This document shows positions 26,979 to 61,755 of a DNA stretch of 64,000 nt, one piece after another. Where the stretch lies: NCBI GenBank assembly GCA_903842065.1, contig CAIMKZ010000106.1:186001-250000 (forward strand), given 5' to 3'. This DNA is from an uncultured Acidobacteriaceae bacterium (GTDB taxonomy: Bacteria > Acidobacteriota > Terriglobia > Terriglobales > Acidobacteriaceae). The notes beneath the pieces were generated by a model that did not search any database, had not been told where the DNA came from, and saw nothing but the letters and a program-made list of their open reading frames with translations. How positions within the stretch are numbered: position 1 is the first letter of the stretch; every line of letters begins with the position of its first letter. The position numbers and the translations under genes are program-made.

Positions 26979-27042
26979 CTTGTCATTCTGAGCGTAGTCT
27001 GCCGCGAACTGCGGCAAACGGAGTCGTAGGACCTGCGGTTGC
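26979..27042. repeat. Dispersed repeat (CATTCTGAGCG family), copy 1
   Basis: The segment reads CTTGTCATTCTGAGCG, then a variable GC-rich part, then GAGTCGTAGGACCTGCGG and TTGCT. Two further copies share the ends at 28972-29036 and, inside trmD, at 61437-61496. It lies between the convergent permease and holA genes. Confidence 0.8.
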
Positions 27043-28971: not shown

Positions 28972-29036
28972 CTTGCCATCCTGAGCGCAGTTTGCCGCGC
29001 TTTTGCGGAAACGAAGTCGAAGGACCTGCGGTTGCT
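28972..29036. repeat. Dispersed repeat (CATCCTGAGCG family), copy 2
   Basis: It begins CTTGCCATCCTGAGCG and ends GAAGTCGAAGGACCTGCGG plus TTGCT, matching copies at 26979-27042 and 61437-61496. The middle (TTTGCCGCGCTTTTGCGG) differs from copy 1 yet also has an internal hairpin. It lies upstream of lptE and downstream of tsaD. Confidence 0.8.
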
Positions 29037-29066
29037 TTTCTGTAAACCAACCACGAATTTGGGTGC

Positions 29067-29092
29067 CCCAGGTCTCGTGTTTGAGACCTGGG
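29067..29092. repeat. Hairpin repeat, diverged copy with GGGAAAGCACA flank
   Basis: CCCAGGTCTC (29067-29076) pairs perfectly with GAGACCTGGG (29083-29092) around six bases. It starts GGGTGCCCCA and is followed by AAAGCACA, as in the copy at 17034-17066, and its GTGCCCCA opening matches copies 1 and 2. It lies 37 bases after the tsaD stop and could end that transcript. Confidence 0.6.
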
Positions 29093-30307: not shown

Positions 30308-30378
30308 AGTTCAAGTTTAGCGGGGTTAGCGGAGTTCGCTGGCCGATCCGGCGAAATAACGCGACAATAGAAGCAGCC

Positions 30379-31770
30379 ATGCCGTCCGCCAAAGCCAAGT
30401 ACGACGCCGCGCTCCAAATCGTCGCCGATCTGCGCGCTAAAGGCTTTGAGGCCTGGCTGGCCGGCGGTTGCGTGCGCGATCTCGCGCTGGACCGCGAACC
30501 CCACGACTATGACGTGGCAACAAGCGCCACTCCCGACGTTGTACTCAACATGTTTCCGCGCACCTTCGCCGTGGGCGCGCACTTCGGCGTGGTGCTTGTT
30601 GCTTCCAGCGATGAAGATTCTCGTCCCGACCGCTTCACAACGGAGGTCGCCACCTTCCGCTCCGATGGCGCCTACTCTGACGGCCGCCACCCCGATGCCG
30701 TGCGCTACTCGCTGAGCGCCGAGGAAGACGTGCAGCGCCGCGACTTCACCATCAACGGCCTCTTGCTCGACCCGTTCATCGAGATTCCCGGATACTGCTC
30801 GCCCTCTCCGCCCATCGAAGGGGTTCGCGACTTTGTCGGCGGTCTGGCCGATCTCGAATTGGGCGTAGTGCGCGCCATCGGCCGCGCCGAGACGCGCTTT
30901 GAAGAAGACCACCTCCGCATGTTGCGTGCCGTGCGCTTTGCCGCGCGCTTCGGCTTTGAGATCGAGCCCGGGACCCTCGCCGCCATTCGCGCTCTCGCTT
31001 CGCGCATCCACGCCGTGAGCCGGGAGCGGGTTCGCGACGAACTCACCAAAATGCTCACCGAGGGCCGAGCCCGCCGCGCCTTCGAGTTATTGGACTCAAC
31101 CGGCCTGCTCGCCGAGGTGCTGCCTGAGATTGCGCGCATGAAGGGTATCGAGCAGCCGCCCGAGTTCCATCCCGAAGGCGACGTTTGGACCCATACTTTA
31201 CTTCTGCTCGATCAACTTGAACCGGGAAGCAGCCCAACGCTGGCCTGGGGCGCGCTGCTGCACGACGTGGGCAAACCCGCCACCTTCCGCCGCGCTACGG
31301 ACCGTATCCGTTTCGACGGCCACGTGGAGGTAGGCGCGGCCATCGCCGCCGAAGTCTGCCGCCGCTTCCGCTTCTCGAACGAAGAGACCGCCCGTGTGCT
31401 CTCGCTCGTTGAGCAGCACATGCGCTTCATGGACGCGCAGAGGATGAAGGCGTCCACTCTCAAAAAGTTTCTGCGCCAGGAGAACTTCGACGAACATCTG
31501 GCCCTGAACCGGATGGACTGCATGGCGGCGATGGGCAAGCTCGACACTTACGAGTTTGTGAAGCAGCAGTTGGAGGCGATGCCGGAAGAAACCATGCGCC
31601 CCACGCCGCTCATCACCGGCCGGGAACTGATCTCGGCAGGCTACACGCCCGGTCCGAAGTTCCGCGAAGTGCTGGCCGCTGTTGAAGACGCACAGCTTGA
31701 AGGCACGATCACAACGGCAGAGGAAGCGCTGGCGCTGGCTAGGAAGCAGCTCGGCGAACCCGGCCTCTAA
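30379..31770 (+). CDS. cca: CCA-adding tRNA nucleotidyltransferase with HD domain
   Basis: This 463-residue enzyme adds or repairs the CCA tail of tRNAs. The class II nucleotidyltransferase head shows LAGGCVRDLALDREPHDYDVAT (about residues 29-50) with the catalytic DxD, followed by EEDVQRRDFTINGLL and RFEEDHLRMLRAVRFAARF. The neck and body follow, then an HD phosphohydrolase-like motif LLHDVGKPATF (about 295-305). In other bacteria a split pair of A- and CC-adding enzymes exists; this one cannot be assigned to A- or CC-only by eye. Both tRNAs of the window already encode CCA, so repair is a likely role. Confidence 0.88.
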   Translation: MPSAKAKYDAALQIVADLRAKGFEAWLAGGCVRDLALDREPHDYDVATSATPDVVLNMFPRTFAVGAHFGVVLVASSDEDSRPDRFTTEVATFRSDGAYSDGRHPDAVRYSLSAEEDVQRRDFTINGLLLDPFIEIPGYCSPSPPIEGVRDFVGGLADLELGVVRAIGRAETRFEEDHLRMLRAVRFAARFGFEIEPGTLAAIRALASRIHAVSRERVRDELTKMLTEGRARRAFELLDSTGLLAEVLPEIARMKGIEQPPEFHPEGDVWTHTLLLLDQLEPGSSPTLAWGALLHDVGKPATFRRATDRIRFDGHVEVGAAIAAEVCRRFRFSNEETARVLSLVEQHMRFMDAQRMKASTLKKFLRQENFDEHLALNRMDCMAAMGKLDTYEFVKQQLEAMPEETMRPTPLITGRELISAGYTPGPKFREVLAAVEDAQLEGTITTAEEALALARKQLGEPGL

Positions 31771-55402: not shown

Positions 55403-56980
55403 TTAGAGCGGAATCAGCCCGTGCTTCTTCTGCGGGCGCAGCTCGCGCTTGCTGTGCAGCGACTCGAGTGCGCGCGCCAGGTAGGGCCGTGTCTGGGCCG
55501 GCTCAATGATGTCGTCGACGAGCCGGCGGCCGGCGGCCACGTAGGGGTTTGAAAACGTCTCACGATAGTCGTTGACCAGCTCGCTGCGTTTTGCGGCTTT
55601 GTCCTCGGCGGAGTCGATCTCGCGCCGGAAGACGATCTCCGCTGCGCCCTCGGCGCCCATCACGGCAATCTCTGCCATCGGCCAGGCGACAACGCGGTCC
55701 GCTCCCAGGCCGCGGGAGCACATGGCAATGTAGGCTCCGCCGTAGGCCTTGCGCATCACGACAGTCAGCTTGGGCACGGTGGCCGCGGAGTAGGCGAACA
55801 GCAATTTTGCGCCGTGACGGATGATGCCGCCCCGCTCCTGCTCCACGCCGGGCAAAAAGCCGGGGACATCGACCAGGGTGATGATCGGAATGTTGAAGGC
55901 ATTCAGGAAACGAACAAAACGCGCGGCCTTGTCTGAAGCGTCGATATCGAGCGCGCCGGCCATGGCGCAGGGCTGGTTGGCCACGATGCCCACAGTGCGC
56001 CCTTGCAGGCGGCCGAAGCCGATGACGATGTTCGGGGCAAAGGCGGGCTGGATCTCGAGGAAGTCCTCGTTATCCACGATGCGCAGAATGACGGCGCGAA
56101 CGTCGTAGGCGACCTTGGGATCGGTTGGCACAACCTGGTTAAGAACCGGGTCGGGGCGCACGCGGGAAGAGAAGGGCAGCCGCGGCGGGTCTTCCAAATT
56201 GTTCGAGGGCAGAAAGCTGAGCAGCTTGCGGCAGAGCATCGCCGCATCCGCGTCGTCTTTGGCGATCAGGTGGACGACGCCGGAGTAGCGCATCTGCGAG
56301 TGGGGTCCGCCCAGTTCCTCGGCGGTTACATTTTCTCCAGTAACCTGGCGGATGACCTGCGGTCCGGTGATGAACATCCGGGCCGCCTCGGTCTGGATGA
56401 TGAAGTCGGTGAGCGCCGGGCTGTAGGCCGCGCCGCCCGCGCAGGGGCCGCAGATGAGCGAGATCTGGGGCACCGAGCCCGACAGCATCACGTTGCTGTA
56501 GAAGACACGGGCATAGCCGGCCAGGCTGTCGATGCCCTCCTGGACGCGCGCGCCACCCGAGTCGTTGATAAAGACAAAGGGGCTGCCGGTCTTGAGCGAG
56601 AGCGAAAGGGCGTCGGCGATCTTGTTGCAGTGGGTCTCGCCGGCCGCGCCGCCGGCTACGGTAAAGTCCTGGCTGGCAAGGTGGACCTGCCGGCCGTCGA
56701 TGGTGGCGCAGCCGGTAACCACTCCGTCGGCGGGTAGCGACTTGCCGGCCATTCCAAAGGTCGTTGCGCGATGCTGGGCAAACATCCCGATCTCGTCGAA
56801 GCTGTCTTTATCTACCAGCTTGGCGATACGCTCCCGCGCGGTCAGCGAGCCTGCGGCGTGATGGCGGTCAATCTTGTCTTTTCCACCGCCCAACTCCAGT
56901 TCGGAGCGCCTCGCTTCCAGCTCCGCTACTTTTTTGGCAATGGTTTTCTGGTTCCCTGTATCCTGCTCGGACGTCATCAT
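55403..56980 (-). CDS. Acyl-CoA carboxylase beta subunit (propionyl/methylmalonyl-CoA carboxyltransferase)
   Basis: This 525-residue carboxyltransferase moves a carboxyl group between biotin and propionyl-CoA, or works in reverse as part of a decarboxylase. The two crotonase-like halves have the family motifs GGVARVQEG-like SGGARVQEGID (about 150-160), GPCAGGAAYSPALTDF in the first half, and VDVPGFLPGVEQE, GGAYIAM in the second. It is likely the beta subunit of propionyl-CoA carboxylase (PccB or MmdA type); the biotin carboxylase and biotin-carrier genes are not in the window. The start, ATGATG at 56980, follows AGGAGAG. First gene of the methylmalonyl operon. Confidence 0.92.
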   Translation of the reverse strand: MMTSEQDTGNQKTIAKKVAELEARRSELELGGGKDKIDRHHAAGSLTARERIAKLVDKDSFDEIGMFAQHRATTFGMAGKSLPADGVVTGCATIDGRQVHLASQDFTVAGGAAGETHCNKIADALSLSLKTGSPFVFINDSGGARVQEGIDSLAGYARVFYSNVMLSGSVPQISLICGPCAGGAAYSPALTDFIIQTEAARMFITGPQVIRQVTGENVTAEELGGPHSQMRYSGVVHLIAKDDADAAMLCRKLLSFLPSNNLEDPPRLPFSSRVRPDPVLNQVVPTDPKVAYDVRAVILRIVDNEDFLEIQPAFAPNIVIGFGRLQGRTVGIVANQPCAMAGALDIDASDKAARFVRFLNAFNIPIITLVDVPGFLPGVEQERGGIIRHGAKLLFAYSAATVPKLTVVMRKAYGGAYIAMCSRGLGADRVVAWPMAEIAVMGAEGAAEIVFRREIDSAEDKAAKRSELVNDYRETFSNPYVAAGRRLVDDIIEPAQTRPYLARALESLHSKRELRPQKKHGLIPL

Positions 56981-60864: not shown

Positions 60865-61755
60865 TCAGCCGGCTTCCGAGCGAATAGCTTCGATCAGCCG
60901 GCGATCCTGCTTGTCGAGCTGGGCTTCTGCGAGCAGGTCGGGCCGGTTGGCCAGCGTCTTGCGCAACTGCTGCTCCCGCCGCCAGCGGCGGATCTGCTGG
61001 TGGTCGCCGTTCATCAGTACCTCAGGCACGCGCAGCCCGGCAAACTCTGCCGGCCGCGTGTAGTGGGGATAGTCGAGCAGCCCTCCCGCGCCGTGCTGCG
61101 AACGCGGCACGCCATCTACATCTGTAGTGATCTCGGCGTCGGCGGTTCCAAAGCTCTCAAACTCGCTTGAGGCCTCGTTGCCCAGCACGCCGGGAAGCAG
61201 CCGCATCACTGTATCGATAACAATCGCGGCGGCCAGCTCGCCGCCACTTAGAACATAGTCGCCGATCGAAAGCTCCATGTCGCAGTAGAGCTGGTTGACT
61301 CGCTCATCCACTCCCTCGTACCGCCCGCAGACAAAGACGATGCGATCGAGGTGTGCCAGCTCGCGCGCCAGTGACTGATCGAAGCGGCGGCCCTGGGCAG
61401 AGAGCAGAATGACGCGCGTTCCTGCGCCACTTTCAACTTTGTCATCCTGAGCGAAGGTCGCGTCAGCGACCGGAGTCGAAGGATCTGCGGTTGCCTCTAG
61501 CGATGCCCCCCGCTCGGCCTTCGTCCCAATCCCCAGCGAGGCCAGCGCCCCGGCAATCGGCTCGGGCTTCAGCACCATCCCCTCGCCGCCGCCGAAGGGC
61601 CGGTCGTCCACGGTGCGATGCCGGTCGTGCGTAAACTCGCGCAGATCGTGCGTAGCCACCGCCACCCGCGCCTCGGCGATAGCCCGGCGCAGAATGCCGT
61701 GCTCGAAGATGCCGTCAAAGAAGCGCGGGAAGATGGTGACGATGTCAAAGCGCAT
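60865..61755 (-). CDS. trmD: tRNA (guanine-N1)-methyltransferase with an embedded repeat
   Basis: This 296-residue SPOUT enzyme methylates G37 of tRNA. The N-terminal knot starts [15 protein letters not shown], and later [14 protein letters not shown] and [14 protein letters not shown] (the trefoil-knot SAM site) are typical. The usual length is about 225-255; the excess is in an insert at about residues 82-112, between [13 protein letters not shown] and [12 protein letters not shown]. The DNA of the insert (61437-61496) is a copy of the dispersed CATCCTGAGCG repeat, read in frame. The knot and active-site motifs look intact. No rimM or rplS neighbour is present. Confidence 0.9.
61437..61496. 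repeat. Dispersed repeat (CATCCTGAGCG family) inside trmD
   Basis: It begins CTTTGTCATCCTGAGCG and ends GAGTCGAAGGATCTGCGG, TTGCCT, matching the intergenic copies at 26979-27042 and 28972-29036. It lies within the trmD frame, encoding about residues 87-107 with no stop codon in that frame. Confidence 0.85.

Follow-up and report, generated by a model that had tools for sequence, protein, structure and literature searches.

Hairpin repeats read in frame within a TrmD loop and within linkers of other enzymes in Acidobacteriaceae

A copy of a dispersed hairpin repeat, here called family A, is read in frame within the trmD gene of an uncultured Acidobacteriaceae bacterium, and copies of A and of a separate family B occupy the same TrmD loop and the linkers of PriA and the CCA-adding enzyme in related genomes. 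Presence, frame, orientation, recurrence and patchy distribution of these inserts were observed directly, as were short linkers in other genera that carry the repeat. The explanation which we regard as very probable is that tolerated insertions of hairpin repeats became disordered linkers, in a manner resembling Rickettsia palindromic elements (RPEs) and intragenic REP sequences. The window referred to below is the whole stretch of 64,000 nucleotides that was analysed (GenBank assembly GCA_903842065.1, contig CAIMKZ010000106.1, positions 186,001 to 250,000).

The trmD gene, encoding tRNA (guanine-N1)-methyltransferase, occupies positions 60865-61755 on the minus strand. Its product is an intact protein of 296 amino acids that matches PF01746 (E = 3.2e-56), and a genome search gave a single TrmD match in the source genome, which bears out the proposal of a sequence-only reading that the repeat lies in frame in an otherwise intact gene. 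The copy extends over 61434-61494 on the plus strand, antisense to trmD, and encodes approximately residues 88-107. It is located in a length-variable loop (about residues 83-112, positions 61420-61509 on the minus strand) following the motif KPEP..LGI..KAER. The strict match covers 61441-61488, GGTTGC carries the right end to 61494, and the left end is placed at about 61434 by the outer pairing of CAACT with GGTTG; the sequence-only reading had placed the segment at 61437-61496. On the plus strand, the copy begins CAACTTT-GTCATCCTGAGCG-AAG-GTCGC.., includes a perfect hairpin, and has the right shell GTCGAAGGATCTGC with GGTTGC. Pairing analysis located a central perfect hairpin, GGTCGC-GTCA-GCGACC, at 61456-61471. 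Counted from GGGEGM, the loop is 60 residues long, about 22-26 more than in short-loop congeners (34-38); together with the roughly 20 residues encoded by the repeat, this replaces a former estimate of about 30 inserted residues. The proposed check for target-site duplication found no direct repeat of at least 6 nt flanking the trmD copy.

The strict pattern of family A detects 33 copies in the 4.09-Mb source genome and none when reversed. The repeat that had been described as common to trmD and two sites between genes is a copy of this family; the two other copies, at 26979-27042 and 28972-29036 (both on the plus strand), are slightly degenerate, and the open frames across them are without coding signal. 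A 20-mer from the right end of the trmD copy has 3 matches in the window against 0.01 expected. A 15-mer from the left end has 7 against 1.78 expected, and three of these are trmD and the two copies just described. Chance similarity of the TrmD loop to DNA between genes had been named as a possible refutation, and nothing beyond the G+C-rich composition favours it. It is practically negligible, since both shells and the hairpin match the 33-copy family and shuffled loops rarely match, and the genome-wide census of A copies led us to reject it. The source genome is a draft of 106 contigs, but an artefact of assembly or binning has an equally minute probability, as trmD is intact on a 425-kb contig and inserts of the same type are present in the single-contig genomes G056 and G002.

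Family A is built of a nearly fixed shell, GTCATYCTGAGCG...GTCGAAGGAYCTGC, that encloses a palindromic core of varying sequence. Alignment of 14 copies of equal length shows this pattern clearly, with the central hairpin swapped wholesale. Covariation was observed in the core, where 7 of 9 pairs are altered on both sides in some copies; the whole structure has 7 two-sided pair changes, where shuffling yields 2.5 on average and sliding the partner yields 1-2. The inverted repeat is imperfect and nested. Single-strand folding of the window copies was no better than that of shuffles (z from -0.98 to +0.84), and at the Rfam gathering score only two tRNAs were found in the window, repeat A having no family match. 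The length of 25 of the 33 strict copies is divisible by three, which is possibly mere subfamily structure. The window also contains GGTGCCCCANNTCTCG, the start of another palindromic repeat, in two exact matches, at 29062-29077 on the plus strand, adjoining the rear of the A copy at 28972-29036, and at 56459-56474 on the minus strand; allowing up to two mismatches, there are 4 matches against 0.89 expected.

Congeners were taken from the Occallatibacter lineage, which includes Occallatibacter savannae and O. (Terracidiphilus) gabretensis. By the strict pattern, A is present in 51 of 59 congeners (832 copies). Family B, with the seeds and ends TGCCCCATCCTT...AAGGGTGGG, is dispersed in 53 of them (1003 strict copies, of which the source genome has none). 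Repeat A is mostly outside genes, often directly behind one. In the source genome, 23 of 24 assignable copies have, on their GTCATCC side, a gene that is directed towards them; corresponding counts are 17 of 22 for A copies sampled across the genus, 9 of 12 for A in G056, and 15 of 20 for B. Known in-gene loci were removed from these counts, except that the set from the source genome kept the sense copy in TrmFO, and their rows share ancestry. Most copies outside genes are therefore in sense orientation behind a gene, and this polarity (loci L001-L030, L189-L260 and L426-L427) suggests a role at RNA 3' ends.

A TrmD match was found in 52 of 59 congeners, 51 loci were taken, and 49 loops were parsed (L053 and L094 were unparsed), with length counted from GGGEGM to the next strand. 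The loop ranges from 33 to 133 residues and reaches at least 48 in 24 of the 49. Other genera of the family have loops of 29-44 residues in 24 parsed loci, 34 in 12 of these. Short seeds of A were found in 3 loops, of B in 5, and of palindromic motifs C (GGCTAAAGCC, TTGAAACCCC and ACGACTGAAGTCGT) in 6, giving a union of 14 with no loop matched twice; dispersal is shown for A and B. Codon-shuffled loops gave 0.055, 0.03 and 0.07 seed matches for A, B and C, respectively, and the remaining 33,259 nt of trmD sequence gave none. On a rough estimate, uniform scatter of A over the 59 genomes would place 0.17 copies in trmD, against 3 observed. The window copy is a long form of the repeat; those in TrmD of G056 and G002 are short forms. 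Some of the other long loops contain near-tandem sequence of the TTCCCT type, or unrecognised filler. Those of L044, L046 and L050 (genomes G009, G013 and G038) are degenerate sequences of the TTCCCT type, which represents another route of lengthening.

Solved structures place the insert in a region of variable length. The window TrmD is matched by 27 PDB sequences. In 8byh the aligned segments are residues 2-74 and 109-204; among three solved TrmDs displayed as alignments, two cover 2-74 and resume at 109, and one covers 3-71 and resumes at 95. PDB 7kff aligns without a break over residues 1-203, loop included, and a long loop at that place thus exists elsewhere too. In an AlphaFold2 model built with 32 sequences (mean pLDDT 67.5), residues 87-110 have pLDDT below 50. 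The repeat-coded loop is probably disordered, and the model is consistent with this without proving it; as low confidence extends also to residues 46-59 and 200-250, it is weak evidence for disorder of the loop in particular. A second insertion in the inter-domain linker (about residues 204-223, missing from the best-aligned solved TrmDs) was considered and rejected, because the stretch is conserved in the family.

The trmD insertion is not the only one of its kind. Of the 33 strict A copies of the source genome, all of which were examined, three are read in frame as parts of genes, namely trmD, priA and trmFO. In priA, the copy is situated between the 3'BD and helicase domains. The trmFO gene (L426:324-1928, plus strand, on contig C106 outside the window) encodes about 50 extra residues with A read in sense; the insert corresponds to residues 369-418 (CHPEQ-CHPEQ-CHPERS..ESKDLR), and the solved structure 3g5q aligns at 30-368 and 419-523, leaving the insert between. 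In other genomes, the genes hit are those for ATCase, an ABC protein, the CCA-adding enzyme, a P-type ATPase and PriA, with two doubtful cases, L222, which gave no Pfam match, and L244, where acetate kinase was matched in its distal part alone. In the genus samples, 2 of 31 A copies and 3 of 37 B copies had coding signal on both flanks; in G056, none of 14 A copies besides the one in trmD did. These in-gene rates are lower bounds, as the codon-signal test misses true cases (0.0 at the left flank in trmFO, -0.05 at the right flank in priA). The window's own CCA-adding enzyme (30352-31749, plus strand) is matched in two blocks and has only 39 nt between them, so that the linker which holds repeats in some congeners is short here.

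To be counted in linkers of congeners, a repeat had to match at both ends. Two-ended A matches were found in 3 of 49 trmD, 6 of 46 priA (L290 is doubtful) and 3 of 30 cca linkers, and two-ended B matches in 4, 8 and 1 of the same sets; codon shuffles gave at most 0.13 per set. Five loci drop out of the count: L385, L396 and L410 for A, the last two matching at a single end, and L278 (in sense) and L293 for B. The 46 priA and 30 cca loci are samples, a match of some kind having been obtained in 59 and 51 genomes, respectively, in part to other proteins only, and the cca loci were those ranked best against an A-carrying query and so may be enriched for repeats. Linkers of PriA measure 25-78 residues in the 46 congeners. 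An in-frame repeat in an essential enzyme had been presented as a rare event; the insertion is real, yet it is no one-off, since A or B occupies 8 of 49 TrmD loops, PriA and CCA-adding-enzyme linkers, and priA and trmFO of the source genome itself.

We have also examined orientation and frame of the inserts. In the linkers of TrmD, PriA and the CCA-adding enzyme, every one of the 25 two-ended matches lies antisense to its gene. The frame ..AQDD is used in 11 of 12 A matches (in the form ARDD in L270), the doubtful L290 in PriA being the one out of frame, and ..KDGA (or KDAA, GDGA) in 11 of 13 B matches. As four of the six A frames are free of stop codons, the favoured frame is not imposed by stop codons alone; one sense frame is moreover the more polar, and hydropathy was for these two reasons rejected as its full explanation. 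The antisense, one-frame bias could come from the protein favouring polar peptides, from sense copies acting at the RNA level, or from common ancestry. Beyond the three linkers, orientation is mixed: copies in TrmFO, L209 (ATCase) and L215 (ABC protein) are sense, and those in L267 and L268 are antisense. The three sense copies led us to reject any strict antisense rule for copies within genes.

Repeats could have entered the loop once, in the ancestor of the genus, to be inherited, lost in most species and disguised by core turnover. The single orientation and mostly single frame in the three surveyed linkers agree with such a history, and so does the repeated presence of B in one supported clade (G029/G046/G051). 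It is also in line with G058 (5.3 Mb, 99% complete), whose sole two strict B copies lie in priA (C157:2634-2671) and trmD (C275:40376-40414). In this genome, family B seems to survive only as protein. G032 has A in PriA and a single A copy genome-wide by the A pattern, and the inserts of G032 and G058 suggest old insertions rather than recent movement.

A tree based on TrmD and PriA without their linkers was constructed by a quick method for 49 genomes (40 of the genus); 13 of its 46 inner branches are weak. In trmD, parsimony accounts for the 3 occurrences of A with 3 changes, for the 4 of B with 3 and for the 3 of C with 2; in priA, the 4 occurrences of A take 4 changes and the 9 of B take 6. 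Rows were labelled by hand, G021 (seed match only) being counted with B in trmD and G029 (L293) with B in priA. The number of changes for A, one for each occurrence in both genes, argues against a single ancestral insertion, as do supported sisters free of the repeat (G001 and G009 have no A in TrmD beside G002, which does), the difference between short and long forms, and the fact that A and B are different repeats in one loop. We consider common inheritance distinctly unlikely. The comparison with relatives proposed by the sequence-only reading fits patchy presence, the insert being missing from the nearest tree rows; no close relative was found in which the site is cleanly empty at the level of single bases.

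For contrast, 11 genomes from the genera g10, g31 and g34 were searched, which carry between 4 and 192 copies of A. Nine of their TrmD loops were parsed (L334 and L336 were not), eight measuring 34 residues and one 36; the PriA linker has 23 residues in all 11, and no A or B match was found in PriA of these 11 genomes. Abundance of the repeat alone does not cause invasion of the TrmD and PriA loops.

Recurrence in nucleic-acid enzymes, the preference of each family for a single frame in three linkers, and retention of B in two genes only in G058 could also be read as signs of adaptation, with the linker or an mRNA hairpin regulating TrmD, PriA, TrmFO or the CCA-adding enzyme. This is very unlikely in our assessment, because 35 of 49 congeners have no recognised repeat in the TrmD loop, and the loops span the range of lengths given above, with other fillers occurring in them.

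As to how the repeats spread, mobility of A may be deduced from its dispersal and patchy presence. That A is an element of REP type, mobilised by a Y1 tyrosine transposase like the RAYTs, is a tentative possibility, and a rather doubtful one. The Y1_Tnp domain (PF01797) was found in 58 of 59 congeners, with 9 matches in the source genome, and Acidobacteria possess their own Y1 (TIRYT) group, as described in excerpts of PMC3733652. The tetramer before the A core in the 33 copies of the source genome is GAAG in 14, GGAG in 7, GTAG in 4, GCAG in 2 and another in 6, so that 27 copies have GNAG at the base of the core hairpin and few have GTAG itself. Against this candidate, not one of the 33 distinct Y1_Tnp loci that were examined with 2-kb flanks (4 of the 9 loci of the source genome among them) has A beside it, and two have B. 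One of the nine Y1_Tnp matches of the source genome is at G000:C106:184571-184900, about 1.1 kb ahead of the window start, and has no A or B beside it.

In-frame repeats in core genes, even at a shared site, are already known from published RPE and intragenic REP cases. According to excerpts of PMC2229807, RPEs are fused in frame in 19 reading frames, and the one tested product (Gmk) stays active; the references of that paper name coding palindromes in Wolbachia and Methanocaldococcus, and in-frame RPEs are also treated in PMC10969869 (excerpts). Family A resembles RPEs as a dispersed palindromic repeat in frame within conserved proteins, here TrmD, PriA, TrmFO, the CCA-adding enzyme, a P-type ATPase, ATCase and an ABC protein. 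The likeness is an analogy of how the elements work. Family A differs in its size, the shell measuring about 50-60 bp around a core that varies, against 105-146 bp described for RPEs (PMC2229807, excerpts), and in that two dispersed families occupy the same loops across one genus. REPs of the GTAG/CGTC type are likewise found inside genes of DNA synthesis and repair and of tRNA modification in several bacteria, and two Xanthomonas species carry different REPs at roughly one position in recB (PMC3733652, excerpts). Unlike them, the present repeats form a genus-wide series in the same linkers, with one orientation in three of these and with contrast genera that bear the repeat and have short linkers; GTAG at the hairpin foot, moreover, is limited to 4 of 33 copies. 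ERIC/RU-1 and other MITEs are also short non-autonomous repeats that fuse in frame to genes (PMC2229807, excerpts), in contrast to which A has no target duplication at the single copy tested and was not matched to an IS. In the literature searched, we found no case of two dispersed families that occupy common loops throughout a genus, of short-linker contrast genera bearing the repeat, or of a family remaining only inside proteins, which is not proof that such cases are unpublished.

The origin of linkers from tolerated insertions, our preferred explanation, would comprise the following steps. Hairpin repeats would spread over the genome of Acidobacteriaceae, and in the Occallatibacter lineage A and B would repeatedly reach one TrmD loop and the linkers of PriA and the CCA-adding enzyme, as well as TrmFO in the source genome. 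The open frame of the repeat would lengthen the protein by some 20 residues or more, in a stretch that is probably disordered, and the protein would remain intact. Selection after insertion would presumably leave survivors where the loop tolerates a change of length, the added peptide being near-neutral, and some copies may be old and retained because they became protein. A bolder proposal is that a standing process in this lineage turns gene-end hairpin repeats into linkers, with loosened linker length in TrmD, PriA, the CCA-adding enzyme and perhaps TrmFO providing shared landing sites for unrelated repeats, with orientation deciding tolerance, and with a family able to outlive its intergenic copies as protein, as in G058. 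The sense copy in TrmFO lowered the probability of this proposal, which we hold to be speculative and on balance unlikely.

Read as tolerated insertions, these loci would amount to replicated natural experiments in which noncoding repeats turn into protein, with different repeats entering shared loops of essential enzymes. Genera that bear the repeat and have short linkers would act as their controls, and one genome has a family only inside two proteins.
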